Source: Pseudomonas sp. WN033
Lineage (GTDB): Bacteria > Pseudomonadota > Gammaproteobacteria > Pseudomonadales > Pseudomonadaceae
Direction: 5' to 3'
DNA: 64,000 nucleotides
NCBI GenBank assembly: GCA_002287035.1
Contig: NSKG01000001.1
Coordinates: 372,001-436,000, forward strand
Made by a program: the position numbers and the translations under genes. Shown piece by piece: positions 14,016 to 20,656 of the stretch (position 1 is its first letter; each line of letters opens with the position of its first letter). Under the pieces are notes generated by a model. That model was not told where the DNA came from, did not search any database, and saw only the letters and a program-made list of their open reading frames with translations.

Positions 14016-14031
14016 CTGTATATAAATACAG
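14016..14031 (+). promoter_or_regulatory. LexA (SOS) box upstream of umuD
   Basis: CTGTATATAAATACAG is a perfect match to the gamma-proteobacterial LexA operator CTGT-N8-ACAG with an AT-rich core. It lies 17 bases before the umuD start, where bound LexA would block transcription. The SOS control element is therefore intact even though the downstream umuC is broken. Confidence 0.92.
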
Positions 14032-14047
14032 CATATAGGTGCGCGCC

Positions 14048-14479
14048 ATGTCTGTCCTTCTGATCGGCCCGGCCGCCACTGGCGGCCAACGCCTTCCATT
14101 GTTCGGCAGCCGGGTGGCCGCCGGCTTTCCCAGTCCGGCTGACGAATACCGTGAAGCCAGCCTGTCACTCGACGAGCTGGCCGGTATTCATGCCCCACAT
14201 ACCTTCCTGTTGCGGGTCCAGGGCGACAGCATGATTGAGGCCGGGATCTACGAAAACGATATTCTGGTGGTTGATCGGGCCGTGCAACCGTTGCCGGGTG
14301 ACGTGGTGATCGCCTGCATCAGCGGCGAGTTCACGGTCAAGTTGCTGACCTGGGAAGCCGGCCTGCCGGTGTTGATGCCCGCCAATGCCAGCTATCGACC
14401 GATTCGCCTGAAGTCCACCGATGAACTGGAAGTCTGGGGCGTGGTCACTCACAGCCTGCACCGGCATCGGTTCCGCTGA
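14048..14479 (+). CDS. umuD: UmuD-type SOS mutagenesis protein
   Basis: This 143-aa LexA/S24-type auto-protease shows the expected A25-G26 cleavage site (RVAAGFPSP), catalytic serine S61 in QGDSMIEAGI and catalytic lysine K98 in GEFTVKLL, at nearly the same positions as in E. coli UmuD. After RecA-stimulated self-cleavage the product would join UmuC as DNA polymerase V. A GTG start 9 bases earlier is possible; the ATG is preferred. The gene overlaps umuC (TGATG), and a LexA box controls it. Its partner is disrupted here. Confidence 0.93.
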   Translation: MSVLLIGPAATGGQRLPLFGSRVAAGFPSPADEYREASLSLDELAGIHAPHTFLLRVQGDSMIEAGIYENDILVVDRAVQPLPGDVVIACISGEFTVKLLTWEAGLPVLMPANASYRPIRLKSTDELEVWGVVTHSLHRHRFR

Positions 14480-14712
14480 TGTACGCACTGGTAGACTGCA
14501 ACAATTTCTATGTCAGCTGTGAGCGGCTGTTCCGGCCCGATCTGCATACGCGGCCCGTGTTGGTATTGAGCAACAATGACGGCTGCGTGGTCAGCCGCAG
14601 CCTTGAAGCCAAGCGGCTCGGGGTGAAAATGGCGGTGCCGTTTTTTCAGATTCAGGACCTGGTCAGCCAGCATGACATCACCGTCTTCAGCTCCAATTAC
14701 GCCCTGTATTAA
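14479..14712 (+). pseudogene. umuC: umuC 5' fragment, truncated by insertion
   Basis: The first 77 codons of the Y-family polymerase V catalytic subunit are intact, including the metal-binding motif MYALVDCNNFYVSCE and the steric-gate region. Homology stops exactly after SSNYALY, where the inserted DNA supplies a TAA. The rest of the gene resumes in a fitting register at 19553, about 4.8 kb away. The fragment lacks the second catalytic carboxylate motif SIDEAF, so it cannot polymerise DNA. Confidence 0.93.
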
Positions 14713-14744
14713 GTTAGGTGGAATGCTTTTGAGCTAGGCTGAAT
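14712..14744 (+). repeat. Imperfect direct repeats at the left end of the element
   Basis: AGTTAGGTGGAAT (14712-14724) and AGCTAGGCTGAAT (14732-14744) are direct repeats matching at 10 of 13 positions, spaced by 20 bases. They lie between the umuC junction and the first recombinase gene. Two helical-turn spacing at an element end suggests recombinase binding sites. I did not find a clear matching copy at the right end. Confidence 0.5.
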
Positions 14745-14767
14745 CCGTTGACGCTCAGGGGGCGCCC

Positions 14768-15787
14768 ATGACCACCACCCCATTGCACAAGCAAGTGTTA
14801 AGTCGTTATTCCAGTGTACAAGCTTGGCTGGAGCTCTTGGGTAATCTGGGGCGTGCGCCGGCCACCCTTGACGCCTATGGCCGTGCCCTTGCGCATTACT
14901 TATTGCATTGCGAAGGGAGTGGGCTGAAACCCGAATCCGCGACATTCGAACAAGTCACGCTCTACATCCGTGAGCTGCTACCTGGCGCAAAGAGCGCGGT
15001 GGCGAATTCAACCTTGCACCAGCGGCTTACTGCTATCCGGTTGTGGTACGACCACCTCGTTTTTCAGGGTCTTTGCGAGCACAACCCCGTGCCCCGCGGA
15101 CAGCATGGTCGGCTGGCCCAAGTGCCTGGACATGGAGGGTTTGTCAGGGGCTTGCTCCCACGGCTGATTAAGTTGCCAGACATTCCCACCGATGAGCAGT
15201 GGCGACACTTTCTCAGTATTGCGGCCAGGTCGTCTATCCGTGATCGACTAATGCTGTCGTTGGCGTATTTCGGGGCTCTTCGCCGTGCCGAGTTGGTGGC
15301 CTTGCGTATTGAGGATTTAGACGTTGCACACCGACTGATCTCGGTGCGAGCGGAAACGACCAAAGGCAAACGCAGCCGCGTCGTGTGCTACAGCCCAGAC
15401 ATTGCACCTGTCTTGATAGAGCATCTACATGCTCTTCGCGGCGCTGGCTGGATGCGAGGTTCGTTGTTTCGATCAGCATCAGATCGTAATCGAGGCTCGC
15501 CACTGTCCCGTTGGGCGTGGAGTAAAACGGTTGAAGGGTGGGCCAAGGAAGCGAAACTATCGCACCTGAGCACTCATACCTTTCGCCACCTTCGGCTTAC
15601 CCATCTGGCCCGTGCGGGCTGGAAGCTCCATGAACTGACCACGTATGCTGGACATCGAGACCCCAAAACCACTTTGATTTACCTGCACCTATCTGGCGCG
15701 GATTTAACCGCAAAGATGGCGCACTCCGTCGGCAGTCTCGATGCTCGGATGTTCTGTGAACTCTTTGGGTCTGAGGCATTGCTATGA
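14768..15787 (+). CDS. Tyrosine recombinase, TnpA-like
   Basis: This 339-aa protein has an N-terminal SAM-like core-binding domain (about 10-110) and a catalytic domain with the full tyrosine-recombinase set: arginine in GALRRAEL (R172/R173), H270-x-x-R273 in THTFRHLR, H296 in AGHRDPKTT and nucleophile Y305. Length and position first in a pair match TnpA of Tn554 (361 aa). AGGGGG lies a few bases upstream of the ATG. Its stop overlaps the next start as ATGA. It would cut and join the element ends, with the downstream recombinase helping. Confidence 0.92.
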   Translation: MTTTPLHKQVLSRYSSVQAWLELLGNLGRAPATLDAYGRALAHYLLHCEGSGLKPESATFEQVTLYIRELLPGAKSAVANSTLHQRLTAIRLWYDHLVFQGLCEHNPVPRGQHGRLAQVPGHGGFVRGLLPRLIKLPDIPTDEQWRHFLSIAARSSIRDRLMLSLAYFGALRRAELVALRIEDLDVAHRLISVRAETTKGKRSRVVCYSPDIAPVLIEHLHALRGAGWMRGSLFRSASDRNRGSPLSRWAWSKTVEGWAKEAKLSHLSTHTFRHLRLTHLARAGWKLHELTTYAGHRDPKTTLIYLHLSGADLTAKMAHSVGSLDARMFCELFGSEALL

Positions 15788-17949
15788 GCACCCCCTCAGT
15801 CACCCCTTATGTTCCGTTCGACGCGAGCAAGTACGTACGTCAGAGCGATCTATCGAAAATCGAGCTGAGCATACTTTCGAATCGCTCTCACCGTTCAGAC
15901 TGGGGCTACCTCCAATCAGAGATACCTGAGCTCATGAGGCCGCTAGCTGATATAGCGGCGCACAGCGGCGTTTCTCAGCGATTAGCCATTTCATCAGTGG
16001 CAGTCATTCTCTGGAATGTCAGCAAAACCGGTAAACCCTACTGGTGTTGGTCTGAGTCGCAGTGGTTGACCTTGCTCAGTAATCGAGCAGGATCACGACC
16101 ATATCTCGCTTCCGTTGCTTACCATCTCGGCGATTTTCGAACCCCGCAGCGTATCGCCAAATTCCGGCAGCCGGCGATATATGCTTCTTTTATCTTCGGC
16201 CATGCCGTGTTCAGACATGAGCACGTTCGCTTGAGCCAAGCGTTGAGATCGCTGGGCTACGCTGCTCGCCATCTTGAGCAGTTCCTTTCCAACGTGCTGG
16301 GTGCCTTGATGCTGGAAAACGGCGATCCGCGGTTGGAGACATTCACCGAGGAACTGCTACTGAAGGGCCAACAGCATCGAAGCGAAGGTGTCGCGAGATC
16401 GGTCGGAAAGGTATCTCACGGCCTCGCTGCCATGGGGATTTTGGCGAAACCTTTACGCATGCGAGGCTATACCTGTTGGCGGGCGAAAAGCATCGAAGGC
16501 ATCGATCCGACTTGGGCAATGTGGTGCCGTCGATGGCGAGACACTTCCACCTTGCGTCCACGCACACGTGAAAGCAATTACAGTTTTATCTTGAGGACCG
16601 GTGTCTGGCTAGCGCGCGAGCAATCAGGAATGGCGGCGCCTACCGATTGGAGCATGTCCACTTGCGCTGCATTTATTGCTGCCGTCGACCGGATGACGGT
16701 CGGTGAGTGGGCTTTGGAGTCAGCGAAGGGAACACAGCTAAAGGGGCTTGGTCAGCCTATCGCTGCCAACTCGAAGCGCGGCTTTCTACATGCCTTGCGA
16801 CGATTTTTTACAGACTTTGAACTCTGGGGATGGGGTCGTTTGAAGTTCAGCCCCCGGCATCACCTCGCCACCCCGCGATCCGTGACATTCAACTCGGGTA
16901 TCAACCCGCGGGTAATTGATGACTCGACCTGGCTCAAGCTGATTTGGGCGAGTCTAAATCTTGAGCGTAGTGATCTGCTTTCGGAGATTCACTATCCGCT
17001 GTCGATGGTTCAAGCCATTGCTGTAGTGTGGACGCACGCTGGTTTGCGCAGCAATGAAATCATGCGCTTGGATAAAAGATGCGCGCATCCTCAGACCAAT
17101 GATGTGGTACACGAGGATGGGACCATCGTTCCAGCAAAAACTTTATGCTATCTCGATATTCCTGCCAGCAAGACGTTCAAAGCTTTCGTCAAACCTGTAG
17201 CGGTGGTCGTGAAGGAGCGCATTGACGCCTGGCTGGAGGACAGGCCTGCTAACCAGGCCGCTTTGCTGGATGAGCGAACCGGGGAAAAAGTTAGCTACCT
17301 ATTTCAGTTTCGAGGCAAGCGCATAGGCTCCAGTGTCATTAATGGCACCATCATTCCAATGCTATGCGCCAAGGCGGGTGTGCCACTGGAGGACAGTCGC
17401 GGGCGAATCACCAGCCACCGGGGACGTGCCTCCGCAGTGACGGCGCTCGCCAGCGTCCCTCAGGGCATGTCGCTGATCGAGCTAATGCAGTGGTCGGGAC
17501 ATAGCTCGCCGAATTCGACTTTGCATTACATTCGAATTCGGCCTACCAAGCTGGCAGCATCCTTCGTTAAAGCCGATCAAATGGCCCATATGGTCTCCGT
17601 TTTGATCGATCATGACGTAATTGTTCGCCATTCAGATGCCCCCTACACCTTCTATGACTTGGGCGACTCGTATTGTTCAAATCCCTTCTGGAGCAGCTGC
17701 CCACATCGCATGGCCTGTGCGGGGTGTGACTTCAACTTGCCGAAAGCCAGCGCAAGGGCCCAAGCATTGGAAAGCAAATCGTCTATCGGACGGTACTTGG
17801 AGGCCGTGCCTTTAACTCCCGACGAGCGAGCCATTGCCGAGGGCGACTTGGAAAAGCTGGAGAGCCTCATTCGAAAGCTGGACAATGTGCCGGCTCTAGA
17901 CGGCAGGATGCCGAGGAGATCGATGAGAGAAAGAGGAGGCTATAAGTAG
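15784..17949 (+). CDS. Large tyrosine recombinase, TnpB-like
   Basis: This 721-aa protein has a C-terminal integrase catalytic domain with R422 (HAGLRSNEI), H545-x-x-R548 (TSHRGR), H573 (WSGHSS) and nucleophile Y582 (LHYIR). After it come a cysteine-rich segment (CSNPFWSSCPHRMACAGCDF) and a helical tail, as in TnpB-type recombinases of Tn554-like elements (630 aa in Tn554). The long N-terminus has no recognisable domain. It overlaps the TnpA-like gene by 4 bases. The usual third gene, tnpC, is absent: only 144 bp separate it from the convergent chlorite dismutase gene. Confidence 0.88.
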   Translation: MSTPSVTPYVPFDASKYVRQSDLSKIELSILSNRSHRSDWGYLQSEIPELMRPLADIAAHSGVSQRLAISSVAVILWNVSKTGKPYWCWSESQWLTLLSNRAGSRPYLASVAYHLGDFRTPQRIAKFRQPAIYASFIFGHAVFRHEHVRLSQALRSLGYAARHLEQFLSNVLGALMLENGDPRLETFTEELLLKGQQHRSEGVARSVGKVSHGLAAMGILAKPLRMRGYTCWRAKSIEGIDPTWAMWCRRWRDTSTLRPRTRESNYSFILRTGVWLAREQSGMAAPTDWSMSTCAAFIAAVDRMTVGEWALESAKGTQLKGLGQPIAANSKRGFLHALRRFFTDFELWGWGRLKFSPRHHLATPRSVTFNSGINPRVIDDSTWLKLIWASLNLERSDLLSEIHYPLSMVQAIAVVWTHAGLRSNEIMRLDKRCAHPQTNDVVHEDGTIVPAKTLCYLDIPASKTFKAFVKPVAVVVKERIDAWLEDRPANQAALLDERTGEKVSYLFQFRGKRIGSSVINGTIIPMLCAKAGVPLEDSRGRITSHRGRASAVTALASVPQGMSLIELMQWSGHSSPNSTLHYIRIRPTKLAASFVKADQMAHMVSVLIDHDVIVRHSDAPYTFYDLGDSYCSNPFWSSCPHRMACAGCDFNLPKASARAQALESKSSIGRYLEAVPLTPDERAIAEGDLEKLESLIRKLDNVPALDGRMPRRSMRERGGYK

Positions 17950-18008
17950 AAAAGTTCTTAAGCGACTAGTGGCTCGCTAGACATACCTGTCGCGTTACTC
18001 CTAAGTTA

Positions 18009-18056
18009 TGCGACACACTAGATTTTTCGGGGTTTTGCTGGGCTGCGGGTGTCGCA
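18009..18056. terminator. Inverted repeat between recombinase and chlorite dismutase genes
   Basis: TGCGACAC (18009-18016) and GTGTCGCA (18049-18056) are perfect inverted arms separated by 32 bases that include TTTTTCGGGGTTTT. The gap lies between two convergent genes, so a weak bidirectional terminator is possible. The long loop would also fit a protein-binding site. The remaining 17950-18093 shows no gene. Confidence 0.35.
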
Positions 18057-18093
18057 GGAGTGTGCCGCACGTAGATCGAAGTTAAACCTGATG

Positions 18094-18657
18094 CTAGGCC
18101 GGCTCATGCACTAGCCGGATGTCGATTTCTCTGTCGACATACTGCCACTCCACCGAGGCTCGGAGTTCGGCCAGAAGCCTGTTAAAGGCCGTCTCATCAG
18201 ACGGGGAATATTCGAACCAAGTCAAGAAGTCGAAGGGTTCGTTCTCGCCCAGGTCCCGACAATGGTGGAGGCGGCGGGCCACAGCAGGGAGATATTGGAG
18301 CCCGATGTGAATGTGACGGGACTGTTCCTCAAAAATCTTCCGGCGTTCGTCTTGAGACAGTCCCCACCATGAGGGGTTTTTCCGGATAGGGATCAGGGCG
18401 GCGCAGGTAGCCTCTGCTCGACCCAAGCTTGGCTGCTTCGCCACGAGACGATCCTTCTCTTCACGCACGACATAGCGCTCGTTACTCGTTATCCCGCGAA
18501 GGAGCCATTTGGTGCCCGGAGGCTGCGGCGAAACAGAGCCAGCGGCTACGTTGAGCCGTGGGATTCCAGGGAGAGGGGCTCCTGCCACGGCATTCATCGC
18601 AACAACGCGCCAAACCCCCGTTTCTCCACCAGCGAACGTAAATACTCGTGTATTCAT
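18094..18657 (-). CDS. cld: Chlorite dismutase, short dimeric (lineage II) type
   Basis: This 187-aa haem protein converts chlorite to chloride and O2. It aligns by eye along its whole length with the short Nitrobacter winogradskyi Cld as I recall it. Shared segments include RKIFEEQSRHI, YLPAVARRLHHCRDLG, PFDFLTWFEYSP and YVDREIDIRL. The proximal haem ligand is H115, and the distal arginine needed for O-O bond formation is R128, in the same 13-residue spacing. No signal peptide is seen, so it is cytoplasmic. AGAGGA precedes the ATG. It lies 23 bp after the cupin gene inside the umuC insertion and has no chlorate reductase genes nearby, so it may serve detoxification rather than respiration. 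Confidence 0.9.
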   Translation of the reverse strand: MNTRVFTFAGGETGVWRVVAMNAVAGAPLPGIPRLNVAAGSVSPQPPGTKWLLRGITSNERYVVREEKDRLVAKQPSLGRAEATCAALIPIRKNPSWWGLSQDERRKIFEEQSRHIHIGLQYLPAVARRLHHCRDLGENEPFDFLTWFEYSPSDETAFNRLLAELRASVEWQYVDREIDIRLVHEPA

Positions 18658-18680
18658 CAGGTTCCTCTCAGGCCTTTCGC

Positions 18681-19043
18681 CTATTTCTCAGATAACGCAA
18701 AACCTGCACTGCCCGGCGCAACCACGGAGACAAATATGAAAGGTCCTGGACCAGAGTTCACGGCACCATGTACTTGCCCAGGTTTTGCAATGGCAATATC
18801 TCCAGCTTTAAGATGAATTTCTACGCCGTTGCCTTGATAATACTTGGCCTCACCTGAGATAACCGTCCAAGTATCTTGGCCGTGAGGATGGACATGGGCA
18901 GCTATTTCCTGCCTAGGGTAGGCGTGCCAAACTACAACGACAGAATCGTTGGTCTCCAGAACAACTGAACGGATCGGTTCGCCGTTAGACGGACGGACAT
19001 ATTCGTCCACCGAAAAAATCCGCGATTCCGTTTCTGCTTTCAT
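18681..19043 (-). CDS. Small single-domain cupin protein
   Basis: This 120-aa protein has the cupin_2 barrel with metal-site motifs H50-V-H52-P-H54-G-Q-D and, near the end of the barrel, GDIAIAKPGQVHG with H92. The start at 19043 is supported by GGAG 7 bases upstream; the longer frame continues past it without a site. It is the first gene of a two-gene unit with the chlorite dismutase gene. A metal-binding sensor, a reactive-chlorine scavenging enzyme or a small oxygenase are all possible; the sequence does not choose between them. Confidence 0.8.
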   Translation of the reverse strand: MKAETESRIFSVDEYVRPSNGEPIRSVVLETNDSVVVVWHAYPRQEIAAHVHPHGQDTWTVISGEAKYYQGNGVEIHLKAGDIAIAKPGQVHGAVNSGPGPFIFVSVVAPGSAGFALSEK

Positions 19044-19552
19044 GTTCACACTCCATTCCTGCACCGCAAGGTGACGTGCATCTGGCACTAACACCAAGAC
19101 GAAGCCTTGATCTTGATGGGGGCGGAGAAGCTCGACACGCCGAACGGCATCATGAAGAGCACTTTCATGCGGCACCAACCATTTCTTTTAACGACACGAG
19201 GCTCGTATGCACATGACGATATGTACTTGAGCGCCTTTCGGAAAAGCTATGTTATAGGACGGAGACCGTCAATACTCCGTCGTGGGTAGGCATGACAGAA
19301 CGGTAGGATAACGGCGACGTTTTGGTCATATGTACATGGGAGGGCGGTTCACCGCTCGGCAGGGGTGTTGTCGATGGACAGGTGTCCGCCTTCGATGTAA
19401 CAGATCAGCTTTGACCGGTTACTAACAGGATGACCGGATGATCCGGTGAGCGACGGCGATCTCCTCAGAAGCTACAGCCATACCGGTTGGGTATGAGAAG
19501 CTCCAAGGGCGAGCATGGCCCGGTTCTTATTGACTTTCTATTACACATAAAC
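19044..19552. other. Gene-free right part of the umuC insertion
   Basis: About 500 bp upstream of the cupin gene contain no convincing ORF. They do hold several short palindromes: GACGGAG/CTCCGTC (19258-19281), ACCGGAT-G-ATCCGGT (19433-19447) and CATACC/GGTATG (19479-19495). A frame around 19107-19200 reads like decayed coding sequence but matches nothing I know. The right recombination end of the element must lie just before 19553. Confidence 0.6.
19258..19281 (-). promoter_or_regulatory. Candidate operator/promoter of the cupin-cld unit
   Basis: GACGGAG (19258-19264) and CTCCGTC (19275-19281) form a 24-bp operator-like palindrome with 7-bp arms. Read on the minus strand, a TTGACG hexamer overlaps it, and a weak TAGCTT follows at 17 bases, pointing toward the cupin gene about 200 bp downstream. 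No regulator gene is encoded in the element, so any repressor would be a host protein. This is tentative. Confidence 0.4.
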
Positions 19553-20656
19553 GGCGACATCTCCGAACGGATCATGCGTACCCTGGAATCCCTGGCACCG
19601 CGCGTGGAACGCTACTCGATCGACGAGGCCTTTCTCGATCTGACTGGCCAGGGGCTCGAACTCGAACCCTTCGGTCAGCAGCTGCGCCAGCGTATCCAGC
19701 GTGATATCGGCATGCCGGTCGGCGTCGGCATCGCACCGAGCAAGACCCTGGCCAAACTGGCCAACTGGGCAGCCAAGCGCTGGCCCGGCAAGACCCAGGG
19801 CGTAGTCGAACTGAGCGACCCACAGCGCCGTGACAAGCTCTTGGCCTATACCGATGTACACGAAGTCTGGGGCGTTGGCCGGCGCCTGGCCATGCGCTTG
19901 AACAGCCTGGGTATTCGCAAGGCCATCGACCTGGCCCAGGCCGATCACAAGCTGCTGCGCAAAAACTTCAGCGTGGTACTGGAGCGCACCGCACGCGAAC
20001 TCTGCGGCGAACCCTGCTTCGGTTTCGACGACAGCCCCGAGCCGAAGAAAATGATCGCCAGCACCCGCTCGTTCAGACACCGGGTTCATGATCTTGACTC
20101 ACTGGCCCAGGCTGTCACCCTGCATGTCTCTCAGGCGGCTGAAAAGCTCCGCGCCCAGCGGAGCCTGTGTGGCGCCGTGCATGTCTATATCCGACCGGGC
20201 GCCTACGCCAGCGACGGGCATAGCGCCCGCTGCGCCGGTACCCTTGCCCTGCTATCCCCCAGTGATGACACCCGAGATCTGCAGGCCGCTGCCCAGCAAG
20301 TGTTGCGTAAGCATTACCGGGAAGGGCCGGGCTATGCCAAAGCCGGCGTGGTATTGATGGATCTGGTCAAACGCGAGCAATTCACCCCGGACCTGTTCAG
20401 CCCGCCACCACGACGCGGCAGCGAAGCGCTGATGCAGACCCTGGATGCGATCAATCAGCGCCAGGGCCGCGGCTGCATCCGGCTCGGCCGCTTGCCGGCC
20501 AACCCAAAATGGGCCATGCGCCGGGACCACAAGAGCCCGGGCTATACCACTCGCTGGGAAGAACTACCCAAGGTAGGAGCACACAGTCTGGATAACTGCA
20601 CGCCCAAGAAAGACATCAGGCCAGCCAGTGCAGATCTTCTGGCCGGGTTATCTTGA
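19553..20656 (+). pseudogene. umuC: umuC 3' fragment
   Basis: The remaining 367 codons of UmuC resume at GDISERIMRTLE, directly continuing the sequence lost at 14709. They include the second catalytic motif YSIDEAFLDL, the thumb and helix-hairpin-helix region (GVGIAPSKTLAKLANW, VWGVGRRLAMRL) and the little-finger domain. Without the N-terminal DCNNFY aspartate the product is inactive. A TTG or ATG near 19487-19493 keeps the frame open, so a truncated protein might be made. The end runs 41 bases into the convergent ispD, giving a tail of about 27 residues beyond the usual TRWEELP terminus. Confidence 0.92.

Follow-up and report, generated by a model that had tools for sequence, protein, structure and literature searches.

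A two-recombinase element with a chlorite dismutase-cupin cargo inserted in umuC of Pseudomonas sp. WN033

The insert in umuC and its ends

The stretch analysed here, called the window, comprises 64,000 nt of Pseudomonas sp. WN033 (NSKG01000001.1, positions 372,001-436,000; assembly GCA_002287035.1), and its own coordinates are used throughout. Within this window the umuC gene, which encodes the catalytic subunit of polymerase V, starts at 14479, runs into a stop codon at 14712 and resumes at 19552, 4.84 kb further on. This interruption had been noticed in a first-pass annotation and was confirmed by the open reading frames (ORFs) and by the intact umuC of a congeneric genome (G016, locus L012), which reads through the site and whose 3' part is 98% identical to the umuC of the window. 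Alignment to the intact gene delimited an insert of 4,843 bp (14709-19551). The empty site reads CCCTGTA^CGGCGACATC, and the left and right junctions in the window read CCCTGTA/TTAAGTTAGG and CACATAAA/CGGCGACATC, respectively. The comparison demonstrated a simple insertion without target duplication, and a single A can be assigned to either end of the element. The first-pass annotation had placed the insert at 14710-19552 and the cut after codon 77. The location and the codon held, but the ends are shifted by one base and the cut splits codon 77 between its second and third positions; the third base and the following TAA stop come from the element.

The contents of the insert agree with what had been proposed from the sequence. 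Two genes for tyrosine recombinases of the TnpA and TnpB type (339 and 721 aa) overlap by 4 bp, and a two-gene cargo on the opposite strand, encoding a chlorite dismutase (Cld, PF06778) and a Cupin_2 protein, converges with them (Table 1). The segment 14709-19551 is a single mobile unit inside umuC. Chance is excluded because the same 4,843 bp were found in different umuC genes.

Table 1. Features of the umuC locus of Pseudomonas sp. WN033 in window coordinates
Feature	Position	Strand	Remark
LexA-box-like site CTGTATATAAATACAG	14016..14031	+	upstream of umuD
umuD-like S24 peptidase gene	14039..14479	+	PF00717
umuC 5' part	14479..14708	+	76 codons and two bases of codon 77
Element left spacer TTAAG	14709..14713	+	supplies the TAA stop; invariant among the copies read
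Left arm TTAGGTGGAAT	14714..14724	+	inverted relative to the right arm
TnpA-like tyrosine recombinase, 339 aa	14768..15787	+	
TnpB-like tyrosine recombinase, 721 aa	15784..17949	+	
Chlorite dismutase (Cld), 187 aa	18094..18657	-	PF06778
Cupin_2 protein	18681..19043	-	start taken from the annotated copy L003
Presumed IS66-type transposase C-terminus piece (IEGGHLSIDNTPAER)	19352..19417	-	between the cupin gene and the right end
Right arm ATTACACATAA and the ambiguous A	19540..19551	+	
umuC 3' part	19552..20656	+	rest of the polymerase V catalytic subunit

Copies, orientation and cargo of the element and its relatives

The genome of WN033 contains one copy of the element. In a plasmid collection, 11 records matched 80% or more of the query stretch at one place, and a TnpB-profile scan of GTDB contigs revealed at least 18 loci, at least nine of them with a TnpB of 100% identity. 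The complete unit is present at about 100% in 7 of 398 Pseudomonadaceae genomes, including the own genome, and 46 match some part of it. Full-length sequences were read from 21 other records, which were chosen by exact 60-bp ends and include some genomes held twice. Compared to the window, 16 of the 21 reads showed no difference, three a single nucleotide polymorphism, one an additional 20 bp and one the loss of 1 bp. A copy from a viral collection (L121) has one mismatch. Both junctions could be read in ten different umuC genes (the window, the L003 and L004 types, L041, L046, L047, L048, L052, L061 and L121), whose flanks of 230 bp on both sides are 59.9-77.6% alike in the 45 pairwise comparisons. 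Because a near-identical unit sits in ten clearly different umuC genes, the element must have moved by itself. The cargo travels with the recombinases in the full reads, as the first-pass annotation had expected of a mobile unit, and its suggestion to look for the insert at other umuC genes was borne out by these ten. As judged from the sequence comparison, the Cld-cupin version moves as one unit, recombinases and cargo together. Two contigs of 4,848 and 4,854 bp (L043 and L044) are barely longer than the element and may represent collapsed multiple copies.

An intact element was not detected in E. coli: none of 5,426 genomes had a place covering 80%, and 68 hold some part. The 12 E. coli records listed hold Cld and cupin, and their match ends before the right end of the element. 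A search of 369 genomes across the class with the TnpB profile matched a single one, the own genome, and the family is thus rare in species representatives; TnpB was matched in 572 of 72,556 plasmid records. An identical element is carried by Stutzerimonas chloritidismutans AW-1 (L052), a chlorate reducer.

The element occurs in both orientations in the same umuC, forward in L003 and inverted in L005, L042, L059 and L090. L003 and L090 are exact twins: on either side, all 226 flank bases that align are the same. The junctions of L003 read CTCTA/.../CCAATCG and those of L090, along umuC, CTCTACCAA/.../TCGCTC; the inverted insertion was cut at the opposite edge of the stretch ACCAAT. The remaining inverted copies are less clean. 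In L005 and L042/L059, 61-68 bases beside the element agree with L003 before one side each diverges (flank identity on the two sides 97% and 70% for L005, 69% and 96% for L042).

A search with the left arm yielded 37 distinct 22-bp flanks recognized as umuC, all of which (37/37) read [TG]TA[AG]G before the arm. Eleven of these came solely from a viral scan whose pattern demanded TAAG; in the 26 flanks unselected for it, the element's own spacer was kept at the left without exception (26/26). At the right side CATAAA is followed by the target's own sequence wherever the empty site or a twin is known (L012; L003/L090). Since the target's own bases stand directly to the right of CATAAA, no donor bases are carried, unlike in Tn554-type and SE elements.

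Relatives with other cargo were also found. Elements with related recombinases and both ends readable carry a type III effector (L008), serralysin (L010), a Mokosh-like MkoA together with further genes (L007, 15114-20156), a type II restriction enzyme with its methylase (L097, 10246-12927) or fluoride-related genes (L098). CBASS-like genes (L096, 10236-14548) and a cadmium/disulfide set (L094) adjoin recombinases; the right end was searched for at both loci and not found, so these neighbours count as candidate cargo only. Vehicle and cargo have separate histories, because the relatives carry other cargo. A separate arrival of recombinases and cargo, raised in the first-pass annotation as an argument against a common unit, was therefore seen in part: relatives with related recombinases and ends carry other cargo, and Klebsiella-type plasmids have cargo, right end and a TnpB stub, yet the Cld-cupin unit itself moves as a whole. 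With restriction-modification and Mokosh-like genes in sister elements and CBASS-like genes beside one, umuC may have gone unnoticed as a site of anti-phage defence.

A subfamily (L099, L100) with a TnpB of 34-35% identity lies near umuC codons 38-51 in the opposite orientation. In L118 (11271-12325) both element ends were found in umuC, 1.06 kb apart and without a recombinase match; this insert is probably a non-autonomous copy. In L004, L006, L046, L049 and L094 the umuC 5' part to the left of TnpA comprises only codons 33-77, and these umuC genes seem to have been cut a second time upstream. One member outside umuC (L107/L117) has its left junction at L107:9930 in a gene that, by ORF reading, resembles a phage portal gene. 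The flank at L107 ends with GCGCATATA, similar to the inner CATA in the right arm of the element itself. Pattern hits in viral sequences (L108, L109/L115, L110 and L120) were set aside; they matched neither TnpA nor TnpB nor umuC, apart from a weak TnpA-like match in L110 (25%, E 2e-7).

The Cld of the window is identical to PDB 9gtj, and the cupin is close to PDB 3h8u. The length of the Cld (about 185 aa type) and the best-matching structures of short Clds point to lineage II, and an enzyme of this lineage would turn chlorite into chloride and O2. The oxychlorine defence suggested in the first-pass annotation is putative and follows from the enzyme family: the cargo probably detoxifies chlorite by means of Cld, with the cupin as a putative helper. 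Between the cupin gene and the right end lies a piece of a transposase that presumably belongs to the IS66 family; an IS66 transposase is also annotated under the matches of the listed E. coli records to the element. Matches of 40-72 bp to this stretch (19352-19417) were found in 15 of 398 Pseudomonadaceae genomes, and the remnant hints at the route by which the cargo was acquired. In the Klebsiella plasmid form (L009), Cld (177 of 187 residues identical) and cupin are accompanied by a stub of TnpB, by the right end and by the beginning of the umuC 3' part; the left part and the recombinases are lost except for the stub. Because the cargo stands with only these remains, L009 looks like the relic of a sister element.

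Relation to Tn554 and to described umuC elements

In the window recombinases, the catalytic residues, with roles assigned from the motif, are R172, K199, H270, R273, H296 and Y305 in TnpA and R422, K463, H545, R548, H573 and Y582 in TnpB. All six were invariant in both proteins in the five members aligned (5/5). TnpB has in addition a C-terminal CPH..AC..C motif beyond the catalytic tyrosine. As a yardstick for Tn554 we used a Tn6188-like element from a Macrococcoides plasmid (L125), which was found by a TnpA search and whose gene sizes equal those of Tn6188 as given in the accessible part of PMC3788773; there, Tn6188 has two tyrosine recombinases, TnpA (361 aa) and TnpB (637 aa), and qacH as cargo. 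The classification of the recombinases as TnpA and TnpB stood up, with a clear match to the Tn6188 type for TnpA (hhalign probability 98%, E 3e-13, 296 columns) and a weak one for TnpB (probability 26%, E 7e-4), although CPH..AC..C is common to both TnpB proteins. The score of TnpA with the IntI profile was 65.1, at a cutoff of 265.

A TnpC was not found: there is no ORF of at least 60 aa between the end of TnpB (17949) and cld (18094), and the Tn6188-type TnpC gave no credible tblastn match within the window. Pairs lacking TnpC are counted as Tn554-like in the accessible passages of Van Houdt 2012, including that of RHA1 pRHL2, which matches the window TnpB with 34.8% identity (E 5e-36). Besides the recombinases, the Tn554 family and the umuC element share a fixed site in a conserved gene and the absence of target duplication, and Tn6188 also shares a disinfectant-related cargo. 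In contrast, the target of the Tn554 family is radC instead of umuC, TnpC is present, and a donor footprint of 6-7 bp is left, whereas the umuC element carries none; for Tn554-type and SE elements, the passages available of PMC10214605 and PMC12486829 describe this donor spacer on the right-hand side of the new insertion. Tn6188 is reported in the accessible part of PMC3788773 to lack inverted repeats, whereas the umuC element has inverted arms. Elements of the SE/GInt type, with four core genes (IntA, Tfp, IntB, Srap; GinABCD), were set apart by gene content only, since the insert has just two recombinase genes.

Among described elements, the two-recombinase integron-like element (ILE) of rulB/umuC comes closest; it is known with type III effectors from pDC3000A and avrPpiA1 (Arnold, Jackson, Rhodes); both are named effector ILEs in the accessible text of Rhodes 2014. 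The window element shows the features of this kind: it occupies rulB/umuC next to a XerC/D-like integrase, and its cargo is variable. TnpA and TnpB of pDC3000A (L008) are 83% and 81% identical to those of the window, and the umuC position and end motifs are shared; its type of cargo is an effector gene instead of Cld-cupin. For the effector-ILE type, the passages of Rhodes 2014 at hand give no evidence of where exactly it integrates, and for three-recombinase ILEs they report active site-specific insertion in rulB. The latter elements, ILE-FH1/FH4 with three recombinases and tetR, share the target gene, but their site differs and lies 123 bp into rulB; the window insert lacks the FH1-type set. 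A kinship with them was rejected: the recombinase trio of L006 gave no significant blastp match to TnpB and only short, weak matches to TnpA, and its third recombinase did not match the TnpB profile. In L006, umuC codons 9-34 are followed by such a set of three recombinases and by a mer operon, and therefore two unrelated systems hit one gene.

Islands in umuDC with XerC/XerD were described for Pantoea ICEPan in the available part of De Maayer 2015, which draws no link to Tn554 in those passages. A Pantoea plasmid with a fluoride-gene island similar to ICEPan (L098) shares the end motifs, the insertion at umuC codon ~76 and a TnpB of 58% identity, and carries about 11 kb of other cargo; De Maayer 2015 gives, in the same passages, UmuC position 88 as compared to codon ~76 in L098, which does not establish the same site. 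As judged from these parts of Rhodes 2014 and De Maayer 2015, the role of umuC/rulB as a hotspot of such elements has already been published.

The first-pass annotation had regarded the combination of cargo and target as not described before. This is not supported in that form, as the same proteins are listed as Cld neighbours in the accessible portion of Barnum and Coates 2022 (PMC9751292), namely a recombinase (WP_011914410.1), an integrase (WP_011914409.1), a 73-aa umuC (WP_011914411.1) and a cupin; identical Cld across genera is reported there as well. WP_011914410.1 and WP_011914409.1 are the accessions annotated in identical copies of the element. The element type, with recombinases, cut umuC and cupin, is thus partly known as far as this portion goes. 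A publication defining the Cld-cupin umuC unit was not found in the open-licence literature, covered mostly by titles and abstract starts and without the supplements of PMC9751292. New are the exact ends, the empty site, the two orientations within a single umuC, the predicted dif-like core and the constant left spacer. Since these three papers precede it, to the extent of the parts available, the unit is a delimited addition to a described element type.

Proposed mechanism and competing explanations

We regard the element as a Tn554-related site-specific transposon of a umuC/rulB-targeting branch and assign a probability of about 0.75 to this reading together with the following mechanism. TnpA and TnpB would form a circle with the joint ATTACACATAA-ATTAAG-TTAGGTGGAAT, an 11-6-11 core like the Xer site dif. 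This circle would enter umuC codon 77 by strand exchange at one edge of the 6-bp spacer, and as outcome the element's spacer would stay at the left and the target's spacer at the right. The ends, the simple insertion, the active-site motifs, the recurrence in both orientations and the other cargo in relatives are read directly from the sequences; the mechanism is inferred from them. The predicted joint matches the host dif at 15 of 22 arm positions, while the best of about 406,000 control 28-mers reached 14; the joint may thus be a dif-like core with the exchange fixed at one spacer edge, and the constant left spacer suggests an exchange of one polarity. A LexA-like box was found in the window and in six of nine other loci scanned. 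It belongs to the umuDC promoter, which could read into tnpAB when the element lies forward. For this reason the SOS response may induce mobility, as already proposed in print for relatives.

Several points weigh against this interpretation. Neither a circle nor movement was seen, and the similarity of TnpB to the Tn6188 protein is weak (26%, E 7e-4). The comparison with dif was made after the element ends were known; against the E. coli dif, a score of 15 was also attained by one of about 128,000 28-mers of the window. Inspection by eye shows little agreement between umuC itself and the arms. In L045 and L060, which are forward copies with flanks otherwise identical to L003, 4 bp of target (CCAA) are missing at the right junction, and the exchange model does not predict this loss. 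Members of the family also lie outside umuC (L107/L117, L096, L055 and the fragment L073). By the pattern used, the LexA-like box is absent in L004, L046 and L052, and no sigma-70-like promoter was found for the cargo (0, with 1.4 expected from shuffles).

Ordinary transposition of the Tn554/SE type, in which 6-7 bp of the donor's left flank end up on the right-hand side of the new insertion, would account for the similarity of TnpA and TnpB to the Tn6188 proteins and for the lack of target duplication, reported for Tn554 too. However, the right junction runs from the constant CATAAA straight into the target's own sequence, as the empty site and the twin demonstrate, and the window contains no detectable TnpC; we consider this explanation unlikely. 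A double-strand integration of a circle like that of Tn916, with mixed spacers sorted randomly by replication, would fit the layout of core and spacer usual for tyrosine recombinases. The left spacer is, however, that of the element in all 26 unselected umuC flanks, although not all of these events are independent, and the Cld unit itself occurs in ten different umuC genes, which makes random sorting improbable.

It is also conceivable that the host XerCD moves the element via the dif-like joint and that TnpA and TnpB are accessory. Other elements use XerCD, and the match of 15 arm positions to the host dif would be expected in this case, but both recombinases kept the full active-site motifs in all members aligned, and among the explanations weighed here we give this one the least credence. 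Finally, the identical copies could reflect hitchhiking on megaplasmids and integrative and conjugative elements (ICEs) instead of transposition or selection by chlorine. Copies on plasmids are indeed frequent; yet the near-identical unit resides in ten clearly different umuC genes and the flanks read share no single haplotype, and hitchhiking has little in its favour as the sole cause.

Beyond the proposed transposon of the umuC/rulB-targeting branch, a more general picture can be drawn, which we hold only tentatively and at somewhat less than even odds. The TnpC-less branch of the Tn554 superfamily would be a scarless system of one polarity, consisting of two recombinases and a dif-like 28-bp core, with conserved codons of SOS polymerases as near-universal landing site and interchangeable stress, effector and anti-phage modules, and its Cld version would have swept the Pseudomonadaceae recently, perhaps under chlorine disinfectants.

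Taken together, the analysis provides exact ends and an empty site for a family that has so far been described piecemeal, as integron-like elements, umuDC islands and Cld neighbours, and ties this family to Tn554-type recombinases. With its conserved codons, a gene that is found on plasmids and ICEs turns into a landing site that can be predicted. The constant spacer makes the strand-polarity model testable, and the near-zero divergence across species makes the spread and selection of the putative chlorite-detoxifying cargo directly testable.

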